A stretch of 39,107 nt of DNA from Bacteroidia bacterium (lineage in GTDB: Bacteria > Bacteroidota > Bacteroidia > Bacteroidales > UBA932), in assembly GCA_030537315.1 (NCBI GenBank), contig JAUNNZ010000021.1:1-39107 (forward strand), read 5' to 3'. Shown piece by piece: positions 24,646 to 37,624 of the stretch. A model generated the notes under the pieces. That model was not told the origin of the DNA, did no database searches, and worked only from the letters and a program-made list of their open reading frames with translations. Each line of letters starts with the position of its first letter. Position 1 is the stretch's first letter. A program made the position numbers and the translations under genes.

Positions 24646-26028
24646 CTAACCCAGGAATTCCAGGATACCCTCGGTATCGTCTTTCTTGAAGGACTTCTGC
24701 TCTCCGGAGCGGAGGTCCTTTATGCTGATGACACCCTGTGCGACCTCGTCGCCGCCGGTGATGGACAGGAACGGGATGTTCTTGCGGTCGGCGTAGTCGA
24801 ACTGCTTCTTCAGCTTGGCATTGTCAGGGTATATCTCGACAGGAACGCCGGCAGAGCGGAGCGCGCTTGCGACTGGAAGGATGTAGCGGAGCTCGTCCGC
24901 GCCCATGTTTGCGAACAGCAGAGTGGTTGCGCTGGCGAGGTCCTTCGGGAACTTGTCGAGGCCTTTGAGGACATCGTAGATGCGGTCCGCGCCGAAGCTG
25001 ACGCCGACGCCGGACATATCAGGAAGGCCGAAGATGCCGGTGAGGTTGTCGTAGCGGCCGCCGCCGCAGATGCTGCCTATCTGCCAGTCGAGGGCCTTGA
25101 CCTCGAAGATGGCGCCGGTGTAATAGTTGAGTCCGCGTGCGAGCGAGAGGTCGATTTCAGTCGCTGTCCTGATGCCGGCCGCCTCTATGTAGGCGAAAAG
25201 CTCTTCCAGCTCGTCGAGGCCCTTGAGGCCTTCGGCGCTGGAAGCCATTATGCCGCGCATCTTCTCGATCTTCTCGCGGTTGGTGCCTGAAAGGGTGAGG
25301 ACAGGTTCGAGGATGGCGACCGCTTCGGCGGTGAGGCCTTTCTCAATCATTTCCTCCTTGACGGCGTCAAGGCCCACCTTGTCGAGTTTGTCGATTGCGA
25401 CGGTGATGTCAACTACCTTGTCCGGGAAGCCGCAGATTTCTGCGAGGCCTGCGAGGACCTTGCGGTTGTTTATCTTTACGAGGACGTTGATCCCGAGCTT
25501 ATCAAAGACCTTGTCAACTATCTGGACGAGTTCGAGTTCGCAGAGCTGGCTCTTGCTGCCGATAGCATCCACGTCGCACTGGTAGAACTCGCGGTAACGG
25601 CCTTTCTGAGGCCTGTCGGCACGCCAGACCGGCTGGATCTGGAAGCGCTTGAACGGGAAGGAAATCTCGTTCTGATGCTGGACCACGAAACGGGCGAATG
25701 GCACTGTGAGGTCGTAACGGAGGCCTTTCTCGCAGACTTTCAGCGAAAGCGCCTTGCTGTTATAGCTGCCGTCTTCGAACTTGAAGCTGTCATAATCGAT
25801 GCCGGTGAAAGCGTCGCCGCTGTTGAGGATGCGGAAGAGGAGTTTGTCGCCCTCGTCGCCGTATTTGCCCAGCAGGGTGGAGAGGTTCTCCATAGCCGGA
25901 GTCTCGATCTGGGAGTATCCGTATGTGCGGAATACGCTGCGTATGGTATCGAAAATGTAGTTTCTCTCGGCCATTTCTATCTGGCCGAAGTCGCGTGTAC
26001 CCTTAGGTATGGATGGTTTCTGTGCCAT
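24646..26028 (-). CDS. hisS: Histidyl-tRNA synthetase
   Basis: HisRS charges tRNA-His. The 460-residue protein carries class II motif 1 ([23 protein letters not shown]), motif 2 around [19 protein letters not shown], the HisA motif [15 protein letters not shown] and motif 3 in [13 protein letters not shown], then an anticodon-binding domain (about 355-460). The ATG at 26026-26028 is 19 nt downstream of a -7 box. It is convergent with pncB and divergent from sppA. Confidence 0.96.
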
Positions 26029-26034
26029 TTGCTC

Positions 26035-26064
26035 TTTATTTATCGCGCAAATTTACTACTTTTG
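26035..26064 (+). promoter_or_regulatory. Promoter of sppA
   Basis: TTTA (26035-26038), an 18-nt spacer and TACTTTTG (26057-26064) approximate the Bacteroidota consensus, 20 nt before the sppA ATG. The element overlaps the hisS promoter completely. Confidence 0.6.
26048..26055 (-). promoter_or_regulatory. -7 box of hisS
   Basis: TAAATTTG on the minus strand fits TAnnTTTG; the ATG follows 19 nt later. It is separated by one base from the -7 box of the divergent sppA gene. Confidence 0.55.
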
Positions 26065-26084
26065 CCAAAATTAAAAGGTTAGAA

Positions 26085-27857
26085 ATGAAAGATTTTGTCA
26101 AAATGACCCTGGCCGTCATATGCGGCCTTCTCATACTCTCGTTTTTGAGCTCGATCCTCTTCTTCGGCATCATCGGCGCTTCAGCCCTTGCGGGGAAGAG
26201 CAGCACCGAACTGCCCAAGCAGGGTGTCCTCAAGATAGATATGTCAAAGACCGCCATCGACGAGCAGGGTGCGGAAGCCAGCCCGCTCGCGGACCTGCCC
26301 ATGCCGGCCATCAGCGGCGTCAGCATTTCGACTCCCGGCGAAATCATCGGCATCTGGGACGCCGTGCAGGCAATCAACAAAGCCGCCACGGACCCGACCG
26401 TGCAGTATATATACCTGAAGACCGACGGAATGAACATCAGCACCGCGCTGATGCAGGAATTCCGTCAGGCGCTTTCAAATTTCCGCGCAGTCAGCGGCAA
26501 GCCGGTGGTTGCCTATATCGAGGCGCCTTCAACCGGCTCATATTATCTGGCGTCAGTGGCCGACAAGGTTTATATGACAGCCAACCCCGGCGCGACAATG
26601 ACCGTAAACGGAGTCAGCACGACGATGATGTTCTACGGCGACCTTCTCAAGAAGCTCGGCGTGAACGTGCAGCTTATCCGTCACGGCAAATACAAGTCAG
26701 CCGGAGAAACCTTCACCCGCAACAGCGCTTCCCCTGAGAACCGCGAGCAGTATCAGGCGCTCGTTGACGCCCTGTGGAACTCTATCGCCACTGAAGTGGC
26801 GGAAAGCCGCGGCATCAGCGTCGACGACCTCAATGCCGCTATCGACAATCTCAGCCTCTGCCTTCCGCAGGATTTCGTGGACGCAGGTCTGGTTGACGAA
26901 CTCTTCACCCGCAGCCAGCTGAACGACAAGCTCGCCGCCCTCGCGGGCGTCGAGGATGTCGAGGACGTAAAGGCGTTCACGCTCAGCGATTACATCTCCG
27001 CCAGGAAGAGCATTTCCAAGGCAAAGAAGAAGATCGCGGTCATCTACCTCAACGGTGAAATCGTTGACGGCCGCGGCAGCTCCGATGTCGCCGGCGACCG
27101 CTTTGCATCCATAATTGCGAAGGTCCGCGCCGACTCCACCGTCAAGGCTGTCGTAATGCGCGTCAATTCCCCTGGCGGAAGCGTTCTCGCTTCAGACAAG
27201 ATCAAAACCGAGCTTGACCTCCTCAAGGCAGAGAAGCCGCTTGTAGCTTCTTATGGCGCATACGCCGCATCGGGCGGTTACTGGATTTCCGCCAACGCGG
27301 AGAAGATCTATTCCGACGAAACCACACTCACCGGCTCCATCGGGGTATTCGGAATGGTTCCCGACTTTTCAAAGACTCTCAAGGATGTTGCGCATATCGG
27401 CATAGAGTCCGTCACCTCAAACAAGCACGGCGATATGTATTCGCTTATGCGCCCGTTCGACCAGGCCGAGCACGATTATATGCTCCGGTCGATCGAGGAC
27501 ATCTATGACAGGTTCACCGGTCTCGTAGCCGATGGCCGCGGCCTCGACAAGGCCTTTGTCGATGAGGTCGGCCAGGGCCGTGTATGGGCCGGTTCCGACG
27601 CTTTGACCATTCACCTGGTCGATGAGATCGGCACCCTCGAGGATGCTGTGAAGTATGCCGCAAGCCTCGCTGGAGATCCGGACCTTGAAGCCTGGAAGAT
27701 CAAGGCTTACCCACGCGAGAAATCACAGATGGACGCAATCCTGGAAATGCTCAACGGCGGAAGCCAGGACAAGGTCAGCGCAGCGGTCAAGAACCTCAAG
27801 GACATTGACAAGCTCACGATGATGGCCCGCATGCCATACGACCTGGACATCAAATAA
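26085..27857 (+). CDS. sppA: Signal peptide peptidase SppA, 67K type
   Basis: SppA is a membrane-anchored Ser/Lys protease that degrades cleaved signal peptides and other membrane fragments. From the ATG at 26085 (MKDFVKMTLAVICG) the protein has 590 residues: one N-terminal membrane helix (about 7-32), an N-terminal half bearing the catalytic Lys (K204 in HGKYKSAGETF), and a C-terminal half bearing the catalytic Ser (S396 in AYAASGGYWIS) after VNSPGGSVLAS. The tandem arrangement is the 67K (E. coli-like) form. In-frame codons upstream overlap the hisS promoter and lack family similarity. It ends 44 nt ahead of the tRNA gene. Confidence 0.94.
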   Translation: MKDFVKMTLAVICGLLILSFLSSILFFGIIGASALAGKSSTELPKQGVLKIDMSKTAIDEQGAEASPLADLPMPAISGVSISTPGEIIGIWDAVQAINKAATDPTVQYIYLKTDGMNISTALMQEFRQALSNFRAVSGKPVVAYIEAPSTGSYYLASVADKVYMTANPGATMTVNGVSTTMMFYGDLLKKLGVNVQLIRHGKYKSAGETFTRNSASPENREQYQALVDALWNSIATEVAESRGISVDDLNAAIDNLSLCLPQDFVDAGLVDELFTRSQLNDKLAALAGVEDVEDVKAFTLSDYISARKSISKAKKKIAVIYLNGEIVDGRGSSDVAGDRFASIIAKVRADSTVKAVVMRVNSPGGSVLASDKIKTELDLLKAEKPLVASYGAYAASGGYWISANAEKIYSDETTLTGSIGVFGMVPDFSKTLKDVAHIGIESVTSNKHGDMYSLMRPFDQAEHDYMLRSIEDIYDRFTGLVADGRGLDKAFVDEVGQGRVWAGSDALTIHLVDEIGTLEDAVKYAASLAGDPDLEAWKIKAYPREKSQMDAILEMLNGGSQDKVSAAVKNLKDIDKLTMMARMPYDLDIK

Positions 27858-28405: not shown

Positions 28406-30784
28406 TCAGAACCTGATTTTGACCGAGTCTCCGGCACCTGTGCCCTTGTACTTGTTGCTTGCTGTATTGAAGTGATATGACACACGCAGAATGATGGCCG
28501 GGCTTTTATAGTCATTGTTCTGAGCTATTTTGAACTGGCCGTAATCCACGAACGCGTTGTCAGGTGTGCAGTTCAGAATGTCGTAAGCAGACAGTCTGAC
28601 TGTCAGTGCATCATCCTTCAGGAATGATTTCTGTACGCTTAATTCAAGCAGATTCCTATTGGCAGTGACTTCTGCTGCGCCATAGCTCATCTTACTCTGG
28701 AACATGTAGTCAGCTGATAATTGCCAACTCTTTTTGAAGCGGAAAGAGTTGTTCAATTGGACAACGAACATAGGCTTGTTATAACCGACTGTCCTGGTGC
28801 CTGTAGTTTCCCTTATGTCTTTGACTTCCAGGTCAAAGAACTGCTTTCTGACTCCCACTGTGTACTGCGGGCTCCAGCAGCCTTTGGTGGGGGCGGCCAC
28901 GAGATATGCGCTGAAGACATTGATCGGGCTGTCCAGATTGACGTATTTGAGCATTGTCACACCATCGTCGCCGTACGGATAGCCCGACTGCGCTATGGCA
29001 TCCCTGATGTTCTCATAGGTAGCGCTGAACGTAAGCCAGTTCCAGTTGACATTAAGGCCTGCATCAATGTACTTTTCGTTCTTCAATGTCGGGTCGCCTG
29101 TCTGATATGTGAAACGGCTGTGGTACTGCACCTCGTTGGACAGTTTCCAGAATCCGGGGCGCATGGTCTTGCCTGACACGCTTGCCGAAATGCCCACCTG
29201 GCCTATCTTTGTTGAGAATGATGCTGAAGGGAACCAGTTGTCCTGCTTGCGGTCAAGGTCATTCGTCCCGGAGATGTCATTGTATTTGAAATCAACGTGT
29301 TCATAACGCACACCGGCACTGAACTGCCCGAATTTGAGAGGTAGCGAGTATTCGGCAAAACCGGCTATCGTATTCTCTTTTATTTTGGATTCCGAGGGTG
29401 CGATTTCTGCGAAGTCGATGTTATGCTGCTGCCATGTCCTTGCATAGGTTTCCTCTACACCTGCCTGAACCTGCCCTTTCCCAACGGGATATTTGAATAC
29501 GAGTTTGCTTGCAAGCATGGCAATGGAATTGTCCACATCACTCTTTATGTGGCGCGGTTCTACCTGGCTGGACTCCTCAATGACGGTTCTGTTCGATTCG
29601 TCATTTGTCTGGAAGTCTGTATTGAATTCTATCTCAAGCTTTTCCACCTTTCCGCTATAGTAAACATTGCCCAACCATCCACCGCTTTTCAGCATGTTGC
29701 AGTCATTGACAGATGCAAGGCGGTCGGTTAAAAGGCTGTTCATAAAGACATCCTCTTCGACTGTTTCCTTATAATTGCCGAAGAGCTGGGTTTTGTTTTG
29801 CACCTGAAATCCCACGGAATGGTTTTCATTTATCTGCCAGTTTATTCCGAACAGGGCCTGAAGGCCTCCTGCATGTTGCCTGACATCCATAGTACCTTCC
29901 TGACTGTATAATGTGCCGGGAATATACGCCTCTTCCCAGATGTCGGAACATTGATATCCGTGGTTATCCCAATATGTCAGTTTGCCGATGAAATCAACGC
30001 CGCCCTTCCTGTAGTTCAAGTCAAGGACAGTCCACGAAGGGTCGAAGTCCTTTGTTTTCAGATACTTCTTTGCTTCGCTGGTAAGTGCGAAACTGAATCC
30101 TTCGCCCTGGCGCCTGATGGTTTTGATACGTACCACCGACTTTATCTCTCCTCCGTATCCGGCACCTGGATTGTTCACAACCTCGATTGAACGTACCTCC
30201 TCCGACATCAGGCTGCGGAGCTCATCCGGGTCAAGCACCCTACGGCCGTTGATATAATACACCGGTTCACCTCTTCCTATCACCTCAAGTTTGCCGTTGT
30301 GCCTGATCATACCCGGCACTTTGGCCATCAGGTCCTGTGCGTTGCCTGCGTGCTCCAGCACCGATCCGGATATGTTTGTCACCACTGCATCGCCTTTAAG
30401 TTCTGTCCGTGGCAGCTGCGCCTGAACGACCGCACCTTCCAGAGCCAGCAGGTCCTCTTCCAAAGCCAGCTCGCCCACATTCAAAATCTGGCCGGAAACG
30501 TTTATATCCTTTTCAATGTCCTTGTAGCCGACTAAAGCCACTTTCAGAATTGATGGGCCTTGTGCCGCCTTCAGTTCAAAGCGGCCGTCCTCTTCGGCCA
30601 TAGTTCCAGCGACCACCGAACTGTCTGCACGCAGTACAGCCACAGTGGCAAATCCAACCGGCTCACCTGATTTCCTGTCAATGATTCTTCCTTTGATTGC
30701 GGACTCGTTCTGTCCGAAGCACACCGCAGCCCCTGCCACCAGCAGGGACACTGCCAAAACAATTATTTTCTTCATATTCTTCAT
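28406..30784 (-). CDS. Outer-membrane beta-barrel receptor 1 (TonB-dependent receptor-like)
   Basis: From the ATG at 30784 the protein has 792 residues. A signal peptide (MKNMKKIIVLAVSLLVAGAA...FGQ) is followed by a carboxypeptidase-regulatory-like domain (about 25-100, IKGRIIDRKSGEPVGFATVAV), a plug-like domain (about 110-215) with LKGDAVVTNISGSVLEHAGN and YYINGRRVLDPDELRSLMSEEVRSIEV, and a large barrel. The last barrel strand (ILRVSYHF) is followed by a 20-residue tail with KYKGTGAGDS. No obvious TonB box is seen. It is closely related along its length to the receptor at 33557-35935. It is divergent from a LytTR regulator (269-bp gap). Ligand unknown; a signalling or peptide/oligomer uptake role is inference. 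The codon use is less G+C-rich than in receptor 2. Confidence 0.9.
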   Translation of the reverse strand: MKNMKKIIVLAVSLLVAGAAVCFGQNESAIKGRIIDRKSGEPVGFATVAVLRADSSVVAGTMAEEDGRFELKAAQGPSILKVALVGYKDIEKDINVSGQILNVGELALEEDLLALEGAVVQAQLPRTELKGDAVVTNISGSVLEHAGNAQDLMAKVPGMIRHNGKLEVIGRGEPVYYINGRRVLDPDELRSLMSEEVRSIEVVNNPGAGYGGEIKSVVRIKTIRRQGEGFSFALTSEAKKYLKTKDFDPSWTVLDLNYRKGGVDFIGKLTYWDNHGYQCSDIWEEAYIPGTLYSQEGTMDVRQHAGGLQALFGINWQINENHSVGFQVQNKTQLFGNYKETVEEDVFMNSLLTDRLASVNDCNMLKSGGWLGNVYYSGKVEKLEIEFNTDFQTNDESNRTVIEESSQVEPRHIKSDVDNSIAMLASKLVFKYPVGKGQVQAGVEETYARTWQQHNIDFAEIAPSESKIKENTIAGFAEYSLPLKFGQFSAGVRYEHVDFKYNDISGTNDLDRKQDNWFPSASFSTKIGQVGISASVSGKTMRPGFWKLSNEVQYHSRFTYQTGDPTLKNEKYIDAGLNVNWNWLTFSATYENIRDAIAQSGYPYGDDGVTMLKYVNLDSPINVFSAYLVAAPTKGCWSPQYTVGVRKQFFDLEVKDIRETTGTRTVGYNKPMFVVQLNNSFRFKKSWQLSADYMFQSKMSYGAAEVTANRNLLELSVQKSFLKDDALTVRLSAYDILNCTPDNAFVDYGQFKIAQNNDYKSPAIILRVSYHFNTASNKYKGTGAGDSVKIRF

Positions 30785-30954
30785 ACTGCCATACTGACGG
30801 ACAACACAAGGAAAATGCAACAGAACAGCTTAGTTTTCTCTGTTTACTACTTTCGAAGCAGGAATGCCGCCAAAACAATTGTTGCAATGAAAGTAACTTC
30901 TTGACTAACCTCCAAATATCAGGGACAGATGCCAAAAATGCGGTATACATAACT

Positions 30955-30991
30955 CTTTTCCAAACACGGCCGTTTCCTTTCCAAATATCCC
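30955..30991 (+). promoter_or_regulatory. Candidate LytTR operator, module 1: two TTTCCAA boxes 21 bp apart
   Basis: CTTTTCCAAA at 30955-30964 and CCTTTCCAAA at 30976-30985 are direct repeats with a start-to-start distance of exactly 21 bp (two helical turns). LytTR-domain regulators typically bind a pair of direct repeats of about 9 bp with such spacing. The boxes point toward the LytTR gene. The downstream box, extended to CTTTCCAAATATCCC (30977-30991), is 14/15 identical to the corresponding box in module 2. Binding is predicted, not shown. Confidence 0.6.
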
Positions 30992-31052
30992 AATCAGTGT
31001 TCTATATAGGCTATTATTTGGTCTTTTATGGGATATGACGTATCCTTGCACT

Positions 31053-31961
31053 ATGAAACGTATTCCTCGTGTCGTACTTACCGACTACATCTGCTACAGT
31101 GTAGGATTCTTCCTCTTCATCGTGTTGCTTGAACCATTCGGGACCCGCGACTTCATTAAGACCAACGTGAATCCATACTCCTGTTATGTGATTGCTGCCA
31201 TCTGCTTCTTTCTCATTCTGTTATTTTGCGAACTGATTACGTCCGTCCTATGCCGTTTGCCTGCCGACTATTCTCAACCCAAGGAATATCAAGTCAAGAG
31301 ACTGCTCTGCTTCGTCATTCCCTGTATGCTGATTTACACGGTATACGATGGAGAATCCTTCGTTATCAGACACTGGGGCTGGGATCACTTGGACTGGTTG
31401 TGGCGGGATCAAGATGGAAGCGTTACGTTCAAAAGGTTCTTTCACGATCTCAAAGAAGCCGTATCTGTCGGTGCTTTTATCATAGCATATCAGATATTTG
31501 TCACCCATAACCGTATGCAGAGATACCAGATTGAGGAACTACAGTCTCTTAATAACAAACTGGAAGCGGAGTTCCAGACAATGCAGGATACCACATTGCC
31601 AGTGAAAGTGCAATTGCACGGCCAAAGTCAAGAGACTATCATCCTCAATCCTTCGGACATTCTTTATATCGAATCTGTGGCCAACTACGTGAACATTGTG
31701 TATTTCTCCGGGCAGGATCTCTCGCAGAAGCGCCTGCGTTGTCCACTGCATGACATAGAAGAGACGCTGTCGCCCTATTCCTTCATATTTCATATCCATC
31801 GGGCTTTCCTTGTCAACTTGAACTTCATCACCCAAGTATCAGGAAATGCTGCAGGATACAAACTCCAGATCTTCGGATCGGACAAGGTGCTTCCTGTTTC
31901 AAAAGCAAATGTGCCGGCATTCAGAGAGAAGGTGCTTGCAAAAAAAGAAACAGGAGAATGA
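31053..31961 (+). CDS. Membrane-bound LytTR family transcription regulator 1
   Basis: This 302-residue protein combines four predicted N-terminal membrane helices (about 10-30, 42-66, 80-100 and 135-155), a coiled-coil-like linker (HNRMQRYQIEELQSLNNKLE) and a C-terminal LytTR DNA-binding domain (about 190-300) with SDILYIESVANYVNIVYF and HRAFLVNLNFITQVSGNAAGYKL. It lacks a response-regulator receiver domain, so it looks like a one-component membrane regulator. I start it at the ATG at 31053 (MKRIPRVVLTDY), because the paralogue at 32476-33381 begins equivalently (MKIIQRISIWDY); an ATG 18 nt upstream is possible. It is divergent from receptor 1 and probably controls it and itself. Confidence 0.9.
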   Translation: MKRIPRVVLTDYICYSVGFFLFIVLLEPFGTRDFIKTNVNPYSCYVIAAICFFLILLFCELITSVLCRLPADYSQPKEYQVKRLLCFVIPCMLIYTVYDGESFVIRHWGWDHLDWLWRDQDGSVTFKRFFHDLKEAVSVGAFIIAYQIFVTHNRMQRYQIEELQSLNNKLEAEFQTMQDTTLPVKVQLHGQSQETIILNPSDILYIESVANYVNIVYFSGQDLSQKRLRCPLHDIEETLSPYSFIFHIHRAFLVNLNFITQVSGNAAGYKLQIFGSDKVLPVSKANVPAFREKVLAKKETGE

Positions 31962-32043
31962 CAATCCCGTCAAGCTCAGCCTATATAATCCTCCATTCCA
32001 ATGGTGCTATGACGCCACACTGATAATCCGGAGAATTGATGTA

Positions 32044-32217
32044 TTATTCGTTTGGATTTTTGGTGCAATCATCTACAATCTGTCCTTCAAGCACATTTTT
32101 CTCCTTCGCGGGGAATGTCGCTTCGTATGCCTCGAAAGCTTCCGGATTCTCAAAAGCGACGTAGTAGCCTTTCGGGGTATGGTAGGTCCCTTCCATGCAG
32201 ATGAGGCCGATGCCCAT
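32044..32217 (-). CDS. Possible small protein or gene fragment (57 codons)
   Basis: Unrecognised. The minus strand encodes MGIGLICMEGTYHTPKGYYV followed by an acidic, helical AFENPEAFEAYEATFPAKEK stretch and ends in CTKNPNE. The base pattern is coding-like, G+C-rich in third positions compared with the surrounding spacer. A TGA stands two codons upstream of the ATG in the same frame, so it may be the surviving 3' end of a longer gene broken by the nearby IS-like sequence. No promoter is seen. Confidence 0.35.
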   Translation of the reverse strand: MGIGLICMEGTYHTPKGYYVAFENPEAFEAYEATFPAKEKNVLEGQIVDDCTKNPNE

Positions 32218-32258
32218 CTTTCATCCGACACCAAACTTATAGACTTAGCGGGATGACG

Positions 32259-32281
32259 TGCACCCCTAAAGTTGGACAAAA
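32259..32281. mobile_element. IS3-family-like terminus remnant
   Basis: TGCACCCCTAAAGTTGGACA resembles the terminal inverted repeats common in IS3-family elements of Bacteroidota. No transposase gene and no partner end are visible, so this would be a remnant. Assigned from memory of IS ends only. Confidence 0.3.
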
Positions 32282-32313
32282 AACAGGCAGTTGGAAAACA
32301 TACTTCTTGATAC

Positions 32314-32347
32314 AAAAAAGGCAACCAGATGTAGAATCTAAGTTGCC
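32314..32347 (-). terminator. Terminator of LytTR regulator 2
   Basis: On the minus strand GGCAAC ... GTTGCC forms a 6-bp stem, with inner AGAT/ATCT pairing, followed by TTTTTT. It lies about 130 nt past the stop of the regulator gene at 32476. Confidence 0.65.
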
Positions 32348-32475
32348 GAAATGTGCTGAATGTTAAATTTCCGAAAAATGTTGCAGAAAAATTTGCTTTT
32401 TACACATCACGACAATAGATGGGAGTAGCTCTCAATTAATTGAAAATTCCTCCTCTATTCACATTGATAACCATT

Positions 32476-33381
32476 TCAAAAATTTATTTGTTTCTCGCCT
32501 TCCTTCTGGAGAGCCTGGCGCAGGGCTTCGATATTGGCCTTGGACACCGGGATGGTCCTGTCCATGCTGAACAGGTGGAGCTGGCAGCCTGCGGAGTTGC
32601 CCTCCACGTGGGTGATGAAGCGCGTGTTCACCAGGAATGCGCGGTGGCAGTGGAGCAGGAACGGATAGTCTCCGAGTGTCTCCTCGACGCTCTTCAAGGT
32701 GTTCCGGATTCTCTTCTGTTTCAACTCTCCGTCCTGGAAGTAATGGATGTTCAAGTAGTTGGCGACTGACTCTATGTAAAGGATGTCGGCAGGGGAGACT
32801 GAAATGGACTCCTTGTACTCGCCGGTGATGTCCACTGTGCCCGTCTGCCCTTCATCGACCGTTTCCACCTGCTCGATGGCTTCGTTCAGGGACAGGAGTT
32901 CCTGGATTCTGTACTCCTTCATCCTGCTCTTGGTCGCGAAATACCAGTATATGGCCACGAAAAGCATCCAGATCAGGTTCTGGACCAGGCTGTTCGTGAA
33001 CCACTTCAGAGAGAAATGCCCATCAGGGTCTATCCAGAAGTAGTACCATTTCTTCCAGCCCCATTCGATGATGGTGAAGTATTGTCCGGCGAACGCGGAG
33101 ATGAGGACAACCAGAAACAGATAGAAAATTACTTTCCTCCTGATCTGGTACGGCCATTCCTTGGAGTAGTCGCTAGGGAGCCTGAGGAGATAGGTGACGA
33201 TGATTTCAGCTATCATCGCTCCCACGAAGATAAGGACGCAGCATCCTAAACTCTGGAGGGCCCAGAGGTTGTCACTGACGGAATTCTCGAGTCCGTATGG
33301 CCTCATCAGAGTGAAGAAAAGGAAGAATCCGCCGCTGAGCAGGACGTAGTCCCAAATGCTGATCCTCTGGATTATTTTCAT
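32476..33381 (-). CDS. Membrane-bound LytTR family transcription regulator 2
   Basis: This 301-residue paralogue of the regulator at 31053-31961 has the same architecture: four predicted membrane helices in the first 160 residues (for example DYVLLSGGFFLFFTLMRPYG), a short coiled-coil linker (KSRMKEYRIQELLSLNEAIE) and a LytTR domain (about 190-298) with ADILYIESVANYLNIHYF and HRAFLVNTRFITHVEGNSAG. No receiver domain is present. Tandem ATG codons (33384 and 33381) precede MKIIQRISIWDY; I choose the second by comparison with regulator 1. The 40 in-frame codons upstream cover the operator region and look non-coding. It is divergent from receptor 2. Confidence 0.9.
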   Translation of the reverse strand: MKIIQRISIWDYVLLSGGFFLFFTLMRPYGLENSVSDNLWALQSLGCCVLIFVGAMIAEIIVTYLLRLPSDYSKEWPYQIRRKVIFYLFLVVLISAFAGQYFTIIEWGWKKWYYFWIDPDGHFSLKWFTNSLVQNLIWMLFVAIYWYFATKSRMKEYRIQELLSLNEAIEQVETVDEGQTGTVDITGEYKESISVSPADILYIESVANYLNIHYFQDGELKQKRIRNTLKSVEETLGDYPFLLHCHRAFLVNTRFITHVEGNSAGCQLHLFSMDRTIPVSKANIEALRQALQKEGEKQINF

Positions 33382-33428
33382 CATAGTGACACAAAAACAC
33401 TCATTCTGAGTTAATCCGCAACAGCTTA

Positions 33429-33463
33429 GGGATAATTGGAAAGACAGGCGGGACAGTTGGAAA
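33429..33463 (-). promoter_or_regulatory. Candidate LytTR operator, module 2: two TTTCCAA boxes 21 bp apart
   Basis: On the minus strand TTTCCAA occurs at 33463-33457 and again at 33442-33436, a start-to-start distance of exactly 21 bp, pointing toward LytTR gene 2 as the module 1 boxes point toward LytTR gene 1. The gene-proximal box, CTTTCCAATTATCCC (33443-33429), differs from the module 1 box at one of 15 positions. A CAAATATCCC on the plus strand (33468-33477) gives a partial inverted partner of the GGGATA at 33429-33434. Confidence 0.6.
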
Positions 33464-33505
33464 AATACAAATATCCCGACTGCCCCATGCAACTTTCCCA
33501 CCCTC

Positions 33506-33536
33506 TTTTCCGTTTAATTATAGACCCATACCTTTG
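33506..33536 (+). promoter_or_regulatory. Promoter of receptor gene 2
   Basis: TTTT (33506-33509), a 19-nt spacer and TACCTTTG (33529-33536) fit the Bacteroidota pattern except for one base in the -33 box; the receptor ATG follows 20 nt later. The candidate operator ends 42 nt upstream of the -33 box. Confidence 0.65.
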
Positions 33537-33556: not shown

Positions 33557-35935
33557 ATGAAAAGAAAGATATTTTCCATTATCGCAACTGTGCTCTTCTG
33601 CATCGCACTCTGCGCCCAGAATTCCGGACATTCCGCCCGCCTTCTCGTTCTCGATGAAAATGAAACCCCTATGGAGTTCGCGACTGTCGCGGTGATTTCG
33701 CTTCCCGACTCCACCATCCTCTGCGGAGGAATGACGGACGGAAGCGGTCTTTACGAAACCGCCCTTCCCGCGGGCGCCTCGCTCGTGCAGGTGTCTATGA
33801 TAGGCTACCGCACTGCTGAGCTGCCGGCTTCGGCATTCTCTGCCATCCAGACCGTAAGGCTCAGCCCCGATGCTAAAATGCTAGAAGGGGCAGTGGTCAG
33901 CGCCGCCCTGCCCAAAACTGAGATAAAGGGCGATGCCGTGGTGACTAACATCACCGGCTCCGTCCTCGAGCACACCGGCAACGCCCTCGACGTGCTCGGC
34001 AAGGTGCCGGGAATAATCAGCCGCGGCGGCGAGCTCGAAGTCATCGGACGCGGCGCCCCTCTATATTATATCAATGGCCGCAGGGTCACCGACAACTCCG
34101 AGCTGCGCGACCTGATGTCCGAGGACATAAGGTCGGTCGAGGTCGTGAGCAATCCGGGAGCGCTCTATGGAGGTGACGTCAGCAGCGTGGTGCGCATCCG
34201 CACCGTCAAGCGTCAGGGCGACGGCTTCAGCTTCGCCCTGACCAGCCAGGCTAAGCAGCACATCTACACCTGCAGTGACTTCGAGCCGTCCTGGTCGGTG
34301 CTCGACCTGAACTACCGTGTGAAAGGATGGGACTTCTTCGGCAAGCTCGTCTACTGGAACAACCGCAACTACCAGATCAGCGGTCTGGAAGGACTGACCT
34401 ACCTTGACAAGCCGGACGGATACCATCTGTTCCATGAGGCCGGCACGCTCGACTACCGCAGCCATTTCAGCGGCCTGCAGTTCCTCGGCGGCGCCAACTG
34501 GCAGATAAACGACAACCATTCCCTCGGTTTCAAGATCAACCGTGACCAGGGCCTGTTCGGCTTCACCAAACTTCTGGTAGACGCTGACGTCTTCCTTGAC
34601 AGCGAGCAGGAGGACCGACTCCACACCATCAACGACGGCCATCTGCCGACGAACAACCAGTGGACAGGCAACTTCTACTATGACGGAAACGTCGGCAAGC
34701 TCAATATCAATTTCAACGCCGATTTCCTTAACGGCGTCAACTCCACCGAAACCGAGATGAGCGAGTCCAGCTGGATTTCCCCTGCGGAGCTCTCCTCGGA
34801 GCAGCAGGCCACCACCTGGCTGGGTGCCGGAAAGCTTGTGCTTTCCCATCCTGTCTGGAAGGGGCAGCTCCAGTTCGGAGTGGAGGAGACCTACGTCTAT
34901 GCCGCCCAGACCTACTCCATTACATTCTCCGGCATCCCTGCCACCGACGGATCATTGACCGAGAACAATATCGCCGGCTTCGCCGAGTACGCCGCCGCGC
35001 TGCCTTTCGGCCAGCTCAGCGTCGGCCTGCGCTTCGAGCATGCCGATTTCTCCTTCAGTGACCACCTCGACAGCGCGAATTCCCTTGACAAGGACTACAA
35101 CAACTGGTTCCCGTCGTTCAGCTTCGCCACGAAGGCGGGCCCGGTAGGACTTTCCCTGTCCATCACCGGCAAGACGCGGCGTCCGGACTTCAACAGGCTT
35201 TCCACCGAGATGTCCTACAACAACCGCTTCTGCTACCAAAGCGGCAATCCCAAGCTCCTGAGCGAGCGTCACCGCACCGGCTCCCTGAATGCCAATTGGA
35301 AATGGCTCACCTTCAGCGGCAACTACGAGCGCGTGGACCATTACTTCGTGCAGTGGGGCATTCCGTACAACGACGAAGGAGTAATCCTGATCAAGAGCGA
35401 CAATCTGGATGTGCCGCTGCGCAAGCTCAGCTTCTACCTCAATGCAGCGCCGACAGTGGGAGTGTGGAGCCCGCGCTATACCGTGGGAATGGACAAGCAG
35501 TTCCTGACGCTGAGCCTGGACGACCCGATGGCGGAAGGCGGGAAAACCACGATGAGCTTCAACAAGCCGATGTTCGTGGCCCAGCTCGATAACGCTTTCC
35601 GTTTCAAGAACGGCTGGCTGCTTGAGGCTGGATATATGTACATCAGCAAACTTAACCAGGCGAACGTGGAGACCTGCAAACCTCTGCATAATGCGTCGCT
35701 GAGCGTTCAGAAATCATTCCTGAAGGATGAAGCACTGACCTTCCGGCTCAGCTGGTCTGACATCTTCAACTCCACAGTCGAGTATGCCCACGTGAACTTC
35801 GGCCGCTACATCATCGACCAGTCGAGTGACAATTTCAACTCCTGCCTGACCCTGCGCGTCTCCTACCGCTTCAACAGCGCCTCCAGCAAGTACAAGGGCA
35901 CCGGCGCCGGCGACTCCGCCAAGAGTAGATTGTAA
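33557..35935 (+). CDS. Outer-membrane beta-barrel receptor 2 (TonB-dependent receptor-like)
   Basis: This 792-residue paralogue of receptor 1 has a signal peptide (MKRKIFSIIATVLFCIALCAQ), a carboxypeptidase-regulatory-like domain (about 25-100), a plug-like domain (about 110-215) with IKGDAVVTNITGSVLEHTGN and YYINGRRVTDNSELRDLMSE, and a long barrel. The final strand LTLRVSYRF is followed by a tail with KYKGTGAGDS, as in receptor 1. No clear TonB box. It is divergent from LytTR regulator 2 (175-bp gap) and has a recognisable promoter. Third codon positions are much richer in G and C than in receptor 1, which suggests different histories or expression levels. Ligand unknown. Confidence 0.9.
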   Translation: MKRKIFSIIATVLFCIALCAQNSGHSARLLVLDENETPMEFATVAVISLPDSTILCGGMTDGSGLYETALPAGASLVQVSMIGYRTAELPASAFSAIQTVRLSPDAKMLEGAVVSAALPKTEIKGDAVVTNITGSVLEHTGNALDVLGKVPGIISRGGELEVIGRGAPLYYINGRRVTDNSELRDLMSEDIRSVEVVSNPGALYGGDVSSVVRIRTVKRQGDGFSFALTSQAKQHIYTCSDFEPSWSVLDLNYRVKGWDFFGKLVYWNNRNYQISGLEGLTYLDKPDGYHLFHEAGTLDYRSHFSGLQFLGGANWQINDNHSLGFKINRDQGLFGFTKLLVDADVFLDSEQEDRLHTINDGHLPTNNQWTGNFYYDGNVGKLNINFNADFLNGVNSTETEMSESSWISPAELSSEQQATTWLGAGKLVLSHPVWKGQLQFGVEETYVYAAQTYSITFSGIPATDGSLTENNIAGFAEYAAALPFGQLSVGLRFEHADFSFSDHLDSANSLDKDYNNWFPSFSFATKAGPVGLSLSITGKTRRPDFNRLSTEMSYNNRFCYQSGNPKLLSERHRTGSLNANWKWLTFSGNYERVDHYFVQWGIPYNDEGVILIKSDNLDVPLRKLSFYLNAAPTVGVWSPRYTVGMDKQFLTLSLDDPMAEGGKTTMSFNKPMFVAQLDNAFRFKNGWLLEAGYMYISKLNQANVETCKPLHNASLSVQKSFLKDEALTFRLSWSDIFNSTVEYAHVNFGRYIIDQSSDNFNSCLTLRVSYRFNSASSKYKGTGAGDSAKSRL

Positions 35936-36965: not shown

Positions 36966-37062
36966 CGTGTAGCGGGGGCTTTGCCCTTCTCAACCCTCCA
37001 TCGCGGCCGCTGTTGCGGCCATCGGGGCTTTGGCACTCCATTGCGGTAAAGGGCAAAAAGAT
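36966..37062. repeat. Hairpin-rich repeat-like segment
   Basis: The segment CGGGGGCTTTGCCCTT resembles the copy at 28022-28039. GGCCGC-TGTT-GCGGCC forms a compact hairpin at about 36993-37019, and TTTGCCCTT at 36981-36989 pairs with AAGGGCAAA near 37049-37057, so the whole segment could fold into one structure. No gene is seen in it. Confidence 0.45.
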
Positions 37063-37093
37063 TTTGATGTACGGAATAATGTACATATATTTG
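37063..37093 (+). promoter_or_regulatory. Promoter of the yefM-yoeB pair
   Basis: TTTG (37063-37066), 19 bases, TATATTTG (37086-37093): a perfect match to the Bacteroidota consensus. It places the transcript start close to 37099, which supports the antitoxin start at 37111. Confidence 0.8.
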
Positions 37094-37110
37094 CAAAAAT
37101 GATAAGTGCT

Positions 37111-37362
37111 ATGACATCAGTAACTGCAACGGGTTTCAGATCCAACATCAAGCACTATATGGATCTCGTCATTAAAGACAGCCAGGAAGTGATTATTAAC
37201 AGAGGCAATGAGGCGGCTGTCCTTATTCCCATGGATCAGTATAATGCCATGAAGGAGACAGAATACCTTATGGCCTCCAAGGAGATGGAGAAGGCAATAC
37301 TGACAGGAATGGAAGATGTAAAGAAAGGCAACTTCGTGGAGGTGAATATCGATGAGCTATAA
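37111..37362 (+). CDS. yefM: Antitoxin of the YefM/Phd family
   Basis: This 83-residue protein matches YefM: an N-terminal DNA-binding fold (TSVTATGFRSNIKHYMDLVI), the central INRGNEAAVLIPMDQYNAMKETEYL motif and a charged C-terminal tail that would bind the toxin. It represses its own operon together with the toxin and neutralises YoeB. An upstream ATG at 37099 is possible but falls at the predicted transcription start, so I use 37111, which gives the usual family length. It overlaps the toxin gene by 11 nt, the usual antitoxin-first order. Confidence 0.93.
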   Translation: MTSVTATGFRSNIKHYMDLVIKDSQEVIINRGNEAAVLIPMDQYNAMKETEYLMASKEMEKAILTGMEDVKKGNFVEVNIDEL

Positions 37363-37624
37363 GATCGCATTCACACCGCAGGCGATGGAGGATTTCAATT
37401 ATTGGAAATCCACGAACCCGAAGACTGCAGAGAAGATAAAGAATCTACTTCGTGAGTTGCAGGAACATCCTTTTACAGTAACGGGAAAGCCGGAGGCGCT
37501 GAAGTATCAGTTCAACGGAGCATGGTCCAGAAGGATCAACCACAAGGACAGGCTGGTATATCAGGTTGACGGAGACGTGGTCACGGTATTTGTCCTTGCA
37601 ATGCGATACCATTACACAAAATAG
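37352..37624 (+). CDS. yoeB: Toxin of the YoeB/Txe family (ribosome-dependent mRNA endonuclease)
   Basis: This 90-residue protein matches YoeB, which cleaves mRNA on the ribosome when free of YefM. Residues corresponding to the E. coli catalytic set are present: E48 in GKPEALKYQ, R67 in KDRLVYQV, and H87-Y88 in the C-terminal RYHYTK. The WSRRI motif (59-62) is also conserved, so the toxin looks intact. It overlaps yefM by 11 nt and is followed 53 nt later by a strong terminator. Confidence 0.94.
   Translation: MSYKIAFTPQAMEDFNYWKSTNPKTAEKIKNLLRELQEHPFTVTGKPEALKYQFNGAWSRRINHKDRLVYQVDGDVVTVFVLAMRYHYTK

Follow-up and report, generated by a model that had tools for sequence, protein, structure and literature searches.

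We analyzed a 39,107-nt stretch of contig JAUNNZ010000021.1 from a Bacteroidia bacterium (the window, meaning this whole stretch), in which two divergent gene pairs each set a gene for a LytTR regulator against a gene for an outer-membrane barrel. Both intergenic regions carry tandem TTTCCAA boxes with a period of 21 bp. These boxes are very probably a LytTR operator, and we consider it likely that they serve a membrane-anchored one-component regulator that activates its own gene together with the divergent barrel gene.

Paired boxes between LytTR and barrel genes

The pattern TTTCCAA-N14-TTTCCAA occurs in the window at 30957-30984 on the plus strand and at 33436-33463 on the minus strand. As the original prediction had it, the boxes start at 30957 and 30978 (plus) and at 33463 and 33442 (minus), exactly 21 bp apart start to start in both regions and each time on the strand of the LytTR gene. 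Its further claim, that the proximal 15-mers match at 14 of 15 positions while the rest of the regions differs, was borne out (CTTTCCAAATATCCC versus CTTTCCAATTATCCC); the two intergenic regions agree at 79 of 171 ungapped columns. The full box is TTTCCAAnnRTCCC, of which RTCCC is the more deeply conserved core. In pair A the distal LytTR box TTTCCAAACACGGC spans 30957..30970 and the proximal box TTTCCAAATATCCC, which starts 21 bp past it, spans 30978..30991 (both plus); in pair B the distal box TTTCCAACTGTCCC lies at 33450..33463 and the proximal box TTTCCAATTATCCC at 33429..33442 (both minus). The barrel side is weak in the window. In pair B an ATCCC is followed at a spacing of 22 bp by a TTCCC, in a distal box AATACAAATATCCC at 33464..33477 and a degenerate proximal box CATGCAACTTTCCC at 33486..33499 (both plus), and pair A has a lone GCATCTGTCCC, its single box TTGGCATCTGTCCC lying at 30922..30935 (minus) with a TTG 6 bp further. 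A scan of the window that allowed up to two mismatches returned three matches, two of them exact, against 0.27 expected in shuffles. Single TTTCCAA words are not rare (12 in the window versus 5.2 expected, a count reached in 1 of 100 shuffles).

We then scanned the window's own assembly (1.9 Mb, 82% complete), which holds three exact sites and none of the reversed pattern. The third site (pair C, contig C23) lies in the intergenic region of another paralogous LytTR/barrel pair. Of the seven LytTR genes found in this genome, only the three with a barrel partner have the exact pair; the four barrel-less LytTR genes have no exact box pair. All three sites fall within 597 bp of the 1.9 Mb, for which random placement gives about 3e-11, and the longer box TTTCCAANNRTCCC has five exact sites in the genome, all inside the three LytTR/barrel regions. 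The direct repeats of period 21 in A, B and C fit operators of the LytTR type (9- to 11-nt repeats separated by 11-13 nt), and the box pairs adjoin genes with a LytTR DNA-binding domain. The original prediction had named the boxes as a LytTR operator; the period, the retention in orthologs described below and the restriction to LytTR/barrel pairs in this genome sustain that part of it, whereas its account of the box was incomplete, RTCCC and the barrel side having gone unseen. An origin of the box pairs by chance was rejected on the shuffles, the reversed control, the longer-box count and the all-word control given below.

The genes run barrel A (minus), LytTR A (plus), LytTR B (minus) and barrel B (plus), two divergent pairs placed tail to tail. 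LytTR gene A (31053..31961, plus) and LytTR gene B (32476..33384, minus, its ATG start set by ortholog alignment) encode 302 residues each. PF04397 (LytTR) scores above its cut-off in both products, and hydropathy places about four hydrophobic segments in the N-terminal part of each, ahead of the C-terminal LytTR domain. The two regulators are 41% identical overall, 51% in the LytTR domain and 34% in the N-terminal part. A Pfam scan of the regulators at E 0.001 returned LytTR only, with no match to MHYT; a PDB search with a full-length regulator profile gave no match, and one with the LytTR domain only gave weak matches to 3d6w and to ComE 4cbv. Barrel genes A (28406..30784, minus) and B (33557..35935, plus) encode PF14905 proteins of 792 residues that are 49% identical, A with a CarboxypepD_reg-like N terminus and B with a plug.

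Conservation of the boxes and of the RTCCC core

A scan of a collection of species genomes yielded 15 loci. Twelve of these, together with G168 and G443 from other families and the three pairs of the genome itself, make up a set of 17 divergent regions, in all of which LytTR and barrel were both confirmed by profile. Left out were L081 (at a contig end), L085 (no barrel in the locus), L086 (barrel on the same strand) and G025 (no box, and a neighbour gene without assignment). The exact pair is present in 10 of the 17 (A, B, C, L075, L077, L078, L080, L082, L083 and L084), and another four have one TTTCCAA with a degenerate partner (L076, L079, L087 at 20 bp and G168 at 21 bp); TTTCCAA is missing from three, G443, L088 and L089. 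The motif search in related loci that had been proposed as a check thus found the paired motif kept, not absent. Tree building grouped A with its orthologs (support 99/100) and B and C with theirs (90/98); boxes occur in both of these clades and in a third. Within clade A (four regions), invariant columns number 33 of 35 in the operator and 86 of 233 outside it, and 27 of 28 across the box pair; the distal box of this clade keeps its own variant, TTTCCAAACACGKC. Within clade B/C (six regions) the figures are 18 of 28 in the boxes and 35 of 137 outside.

The same-strand locus L086 has the barrel gene first and the LytTR gene after it. We rejected this locus as a box-less one, as a pair of period 20 ending in TTTCCACTCATCCC precedes the barrel (L086, 1223-1572), with nothing box-like before the LytTR gene. 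At L079 the distal boxes of the opposite promoters merge into a perfect 18-bp palindrome, and at L076 into a near-perfect one; the box pairs of these loci may therefore share a single site or compete for it.

For counts of the core we dropped L075, a near copy of C, and L078, a near copy of L077, leaving 15 loci. RTCCC pairs at a spacing of 21 were found in the LytTR sense in 7 of 15 regions and on the opposite strand, toward the barrel, in 8 of 15, against 0.011 and 0.035, respectively, expected by Markov resampling. An all-word control compared 512 words at 29 spacings (14,848 cells) over the same loci and so preserved their relatedness. In the LytTR sense its top five cells (nine to seven loci; the next has four) are all parts of the box at spacing 21, and in the barrel sense the top rows are reverse complements of box parts, plus RTCCC. 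RTCCC at 21 is the sole cell that is high in both senses (7 and 8; the next best minimum is 2).

RTCCC pairs were also counted at other LytTR genes, in two extra sets that took no part in defining the motif. The first comprised 58 best-scoring LytTR loci, 54 of them usable once L091 and L092 (already used) and two others were dropped. Pairs at 20-22 bp facing away from the LytTR gene occurred in 5 of 54 against 0.23 expected, the top rank among words, with none in the LytTR sense of this narrowed stretch. The stretch had been narrowed only after the word counts of a wider one were known: there, over 56 loci including L091 and L092, we counted eight opposite-sense and two LytTR-sense cases (L092, and L038 inside a reading frame), and A/T-rich words beat RTCCC in raw counts. 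The second set, 60 loci picked by hand and not at random (59 usable), gave opposite-sense pairs at 10 of 59 against 0.39 expected, again ranking first, and none in the LytTR sense. Two of these ten (L190 and L198) lie inside reading frames, that of L190 being a ketoacyl-ACP synthase III gene, and the other eight fall into few ortholog groups; independent support is therefore below the raw counts. In the LytTR sense of the second set RTGAA (11 versus 0.52 expected) and RTGTC (6) rank above RTCCC, and in the opposite sense RGAGT ranks second, its L186 case lying within a beta-ketoacyl synthase gene. These three words look like coding sequence kept by descent. RTCCC may be a common half-site of this group of regulators, in which case it is TTTCCAA, not RTCCC, that would mark the barrel branch.

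The genes that diverge from RTCCC-bearing LytTR genes include those for a GH3 hydrolase (L153), a GT8 transferase (L156), a PF14905 barrel (L154) and an acyl-ACP thioesterase (L163). At L153 (G141:C8), possibly a sugar-use locus, a membrane LytTR gene diverges from two genes for GH3 hydrolases, the first of which has four RTCCC words ahead of it. Within the genus, LytTR genes also stand beside fatty-acid synthesis genes at L160, L171, L177, L185, L186, L212, L215, L190 and L198; Pfam confirmed the beta-ketoacyl synthase of L186 and the ketoacyl-ACP synthase III of L190, and the remaining fatty-acid neighbours were named from the look of their sequences.

Promoter layout and alternative readings

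The Bacteroidota promoter consensus is TAnnTTTG with a -33 element. With no -33 element assumed, a distance of 34 bp separates RTCCC from TAnnTTTG in both the LytTR and the barrel sense (6 of 15 regions each), and from the relaxed T[ACG]nnTTTG in 7 of 15 in the LytTR sense and 10 of 15 in the barrel sense; the only other distances within 100 bp are 54-56 and 72-74. The predicted -7 of LytTR gene B, TGTTTTTG (33392..33399, minus; one mismatch to TAnnTTTG, 7 nt before the ATG), is 34 bp from RTCCC, and its predicted -33 TTG (33419..33421, minus) lies 10 bp past the 9-mer TCCAATTAT, downstream of the boxes and free of overlap with them. The predicted -7 of barrel gene B, TACCTTTG (33529..33536, plus), is 56 bp (34+22) from the distal RTCCC. 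For LytTR gene A we picked by eye a -7, TATCCTTG (31041..31048, plus), 4 nt before the ATG and separated by 54 bp (34+20) from the proximal-box RTCCC; TATCMTTG, likewise chosen by eye, keeps this spacing in all four clade-A loci. Measured from the proximal-box 9-mer (the TCCAAnnRT position) without a distance limit, the next TTG comes at 9-11 bp in 9 of 15 LytTR-sense and 12 of 15 barrel-sense loci. It is at 10 bp in LytTR B and at 10 and 9 bp in pair C; in the LytTR sense of clade A it is at 29, 30, 29 and 57 bp. The layout of 9-mer, 12 bp, 9-mer, about 10 bp and -35 matches that described for autoactivating promoters of LytTR regulatory systems (LRS; PMC6193735) and for PlnC sites. In pairs A, B and C and in L075-L080 the predicted -7 stands only 4-7 nt before the LytTR ATG (window 33385-33399, minus, and 31041-31052, plus), which suggests leaderless or nearly leaderless mRNAs.

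From these sequences we infer binding, activation in preference to repression, promoter use, cross-regulation and a signal. The signal would presumably be sensed by the membrane part of the regulator. Two LytTR domains would then sit side by side on the tandem TTTCCAAnnRTCCC boxes, 21 bp apart and on one face of the helix, and the bound pair would contact RNA polymerase at a Bacteroidota-type LytTR promoter, giving positive autoregulation. That the boxes lie upstream of the predicted -33 favours activation over repression. The same regulator may drive the barrel gene through the weaker RTCCC pair on the opposite strand, given that such a pair is similarly placed before the barrel promoter in many loci. 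A strong site on the regulator side and a weak one on the barrel side could thereby form a switch, with the barrel following once the regulator has built up. The box pair before the first gene of the same-strand barrel-LytTR locus L086 fits this mechanism. The three paralogous pairs can probably cross-talk, with specificity coming from positions outside the core; cross-regulation among them is plausible from the common box and the 51% identity of the A and B LytTR domains. The clade-A variant and the presence of RTCCC pairs at some other membrane-LytTR genes mean, however, that a common core is no proof that A and B read each other's sites.

Several observations weigh against this mechanism. 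On the barrel side of pair A we found no clear distal partner box and no callable -7, and the proximal box of barrel B is TTCCC at spacing 22. The promoters are all predictions, and the choice of relaxed -7 motifs followed inspection of the sequences. For LytTR A the TTG lies 29 bp from the 9-mer, about two turns beyond that of B, and its -7 is more distant by 20 bp than those of B and C. Among the related loci, G443 has RTCCC pairs but no TTTCCAA, L088 and L089 have RTCCC on the barrel side only, the barrel-less homolog L085 has no box, and the sole barrel-sense -7-like word of L086 is 85 bp from its box. The tree came with a long-branch warning and the B/C support is under the star level of the tool, and the counts of loci are not independent because orthologs are related. 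The box pair is also a poor signature by itself: 151 genomes of the genus hold 20 exact pairs versus 10 of the reversed control. Only four of the 20 are at LytTR/barrel pairs (three in the window's own genome, one in G084), and these alone have a LytTR match within up to 1.5 kb per side, so the exact pair is unreliable for genome scanning and elsewhere mostly background. Lastly, a strict pattern of promoter plus pair detects pair C and neither A nor B. In the genome it has three sites: pair C accounts for two, and the other precedes a gene that Pfam identifies as secA and that has no LytTR match close by. Slightly tightened, it gave 10 sites in 8 of 393 genomes of the order versus one for the control: four at LytTR/barrel pairs, with two each at pair C and G443, one after another LytTR gene (L145) and five with no LytTR match within 1.5 kb. 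The tighter pattern is specific but insensitive. At L145 (G481:C1, about 58384), the next gene downstream of that other LytTR gene has a -33/-7-like promoter, with RTCCC words at spacings of 20 and 21 bp ahead of it. A dispersed regulon was not found in the window's genome, where 12 one-mismatch boxes compare with 21 sites of the reversed control, a control that counts everything with up to one mismatch.

The same sites could instead serve repression, or roles could be split, with the paralogs acting as activator and repressor in the manner of PlnC and PlnD or all as repressors in the manner of CoxC. This is unlikely in our judgment, although precedents are described: PlnC and PlnD bind identical repeats with opposite effect, CoxC is a membrane-bound LytTR repressor, and the paralogs in the window stand tail to tail with the same boxes. 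The described CoxC repeats, however, overlap the -35, whereas the boxes here end upstream of the predicted -33 TTG, as PlnC and LRS activator sites do, and the TTG recurs 9-11 bp past the 9-mer at the loci counted above.

That another transcription factor binds the boxes and controls both genes, the LytTR protein being merely a target, has little to recommend it. LytTR sites are described as lacking a common consensus (PMC4847170), so that sequence alone cannot name the binder; yet the box is confined to LytTR/barrel pairs in this genome, its spacing and position are those of LytTR sites, and other LytTR genes, with neighbours that have no relation to the barrels, show more RTCCC pairs nearby than expected. 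We give slightly less credence still to the repeats being remnants of a duplicated segment, or an upstream element of the promoter with no specific regulator. The three pairs are indeed paralogous (41% identity between the A and B regulators, 49% between the barrels), but the boxes persist in orthologous regions while the flanks diverge, the 34-bp distance is seen again for the RTCCC pairs that precede the barrel promoter on the other strand, and the exact composite box is found nowhere else in the genome. Activation by the LytTR regulator is the reading that we prefer, and what is seen directly beneath it is the sequence, the spacing, the conservation, the repeated distance to the predicted promoter and the restriction to LytTR/barrel pairs in this genome.

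Two further features of the window were noted. A Peptidase S49 gene (signal-peptide-peptidase-like; Pfam) at 26013-27857 (plus) adjoins barrel A, and a type II toxin-antitoxin pair, a Phd/YefM antitoxin with a YoeB-like toxin (Pfam), lies at 37030-37624 (plus).

Related systems and wider use of RTCCC

The LRS of Streptococcus mutans, HdrRM and BrsRM, are described as having 9-bp direct repeats mostly 12 bp apart, strongly biased to 10 bp upstream of the -35, and positive autoregulation (PMC6193735). The proximal 9-mer of pair B, TCCAATTAT, matches the LRS repeat ACCACTTAT at 7 of 9 positions by eye, and here, too, direct repeats predicted to be autoregulatory lie upstream of the regulator's own promoter. 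An LRS as described there, however, joins a regulator and a separate membrane inhibitor in one operon, whereas here the regulator itself holds about four membrane segments and its neighbour is a divergent PF14905 barrel. A gene for a separate membrane inhibitor does not stand beside LytTR A or B, and a remote one was not sought; with no such neighbour, the pairs are not members of the LRS, though their mode of working would be LRS-like. The LRS-like operons of Bacteroides thetaiotaomicron and B. ovatus (PMC6193735, Table 3) share LytTR regulators with several membrane segments, and their 11-bp repeats, 11 bp apart, lie 11 bp upstream of a TATCTTTG promoter, which the TAnnTTTG/-33 consensus fits. 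They differ in repeat sequence (TCCGGTATTCA/ACCGGAAATCA), in having one promoter described and in their partner, an NfeD/DUF2154 membrane protein of the same operon and not a divergent barrel.

Other LytTR proteins resemble the pairs in part. CoxC of Afipia carboxidovorans (PMC11347149) also fuses a membrane sensor to a LytTR domain and uses a direct-repeat operator, but is described as a repressor with an MHYT sensor domain and three repeats overlapping the -35. PlnC and PlnD of Lactobacillus plantarum (PMC2714321) are two paralogs with the same 9-bp tandem repeats and a 12-bp spacer directly upstream of the -35; unlike the regulators here, they are response regulators of one operon with opposite effects. 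YpdB of Escherichia coli (PMC4847170) has a direct repeat, GGCATTTCAT, with a period of 21 bp in the printed oligonucleotide, and one high- and one low-affinity site, which we likewise count as a likeness, but it is a two-component response regulator with another site sequence. Promoters preceded by tandem LytTR sites with a period of about 21 bp are already known, as are LRS-like Bacteroides operons with membrane LytTR regulators. New, as far as we searched, are the box sequence, the divergent use by regulator and barrel with back-to-back operators, and the repeated promoter distance. Among the matches listed, in a search that lay outside subscription journals and preprints, no paper treats this box or divergent LytTR/PF14905 pairs.

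A wider scheme is tentative, at somewhat under an even chance. Many membrane LytTR regulators of Bacteroidales might read tandem RTCCC words (20-22 bp) before whatever gene diverges from them, with TTTCCAA an addition of the barrel branch, the -7 of that branch at 34 (+21) bp, and the three pairs forming one cross-regulating circuit. If so, targets for orphan regulators could be read from the sequence by way of the RTCCC pattern.

Membrane-bound transcription regulators are described as frequent in Bacteroidia (PMC10269533), and within the literature covered very few membrane-bound LytTR regulators of this class are named with a known site or target. The boxes offer an operator that is concrete and testable, stands at a repeated distance from the promoter and is linked to a family of barrel genes. 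The three paralogous pairs are a natural test of whether sister regulators with one box act separately or cooperate and, if the proposed binding is true, the RTCCC core offers a route to the targets of further such regulators.

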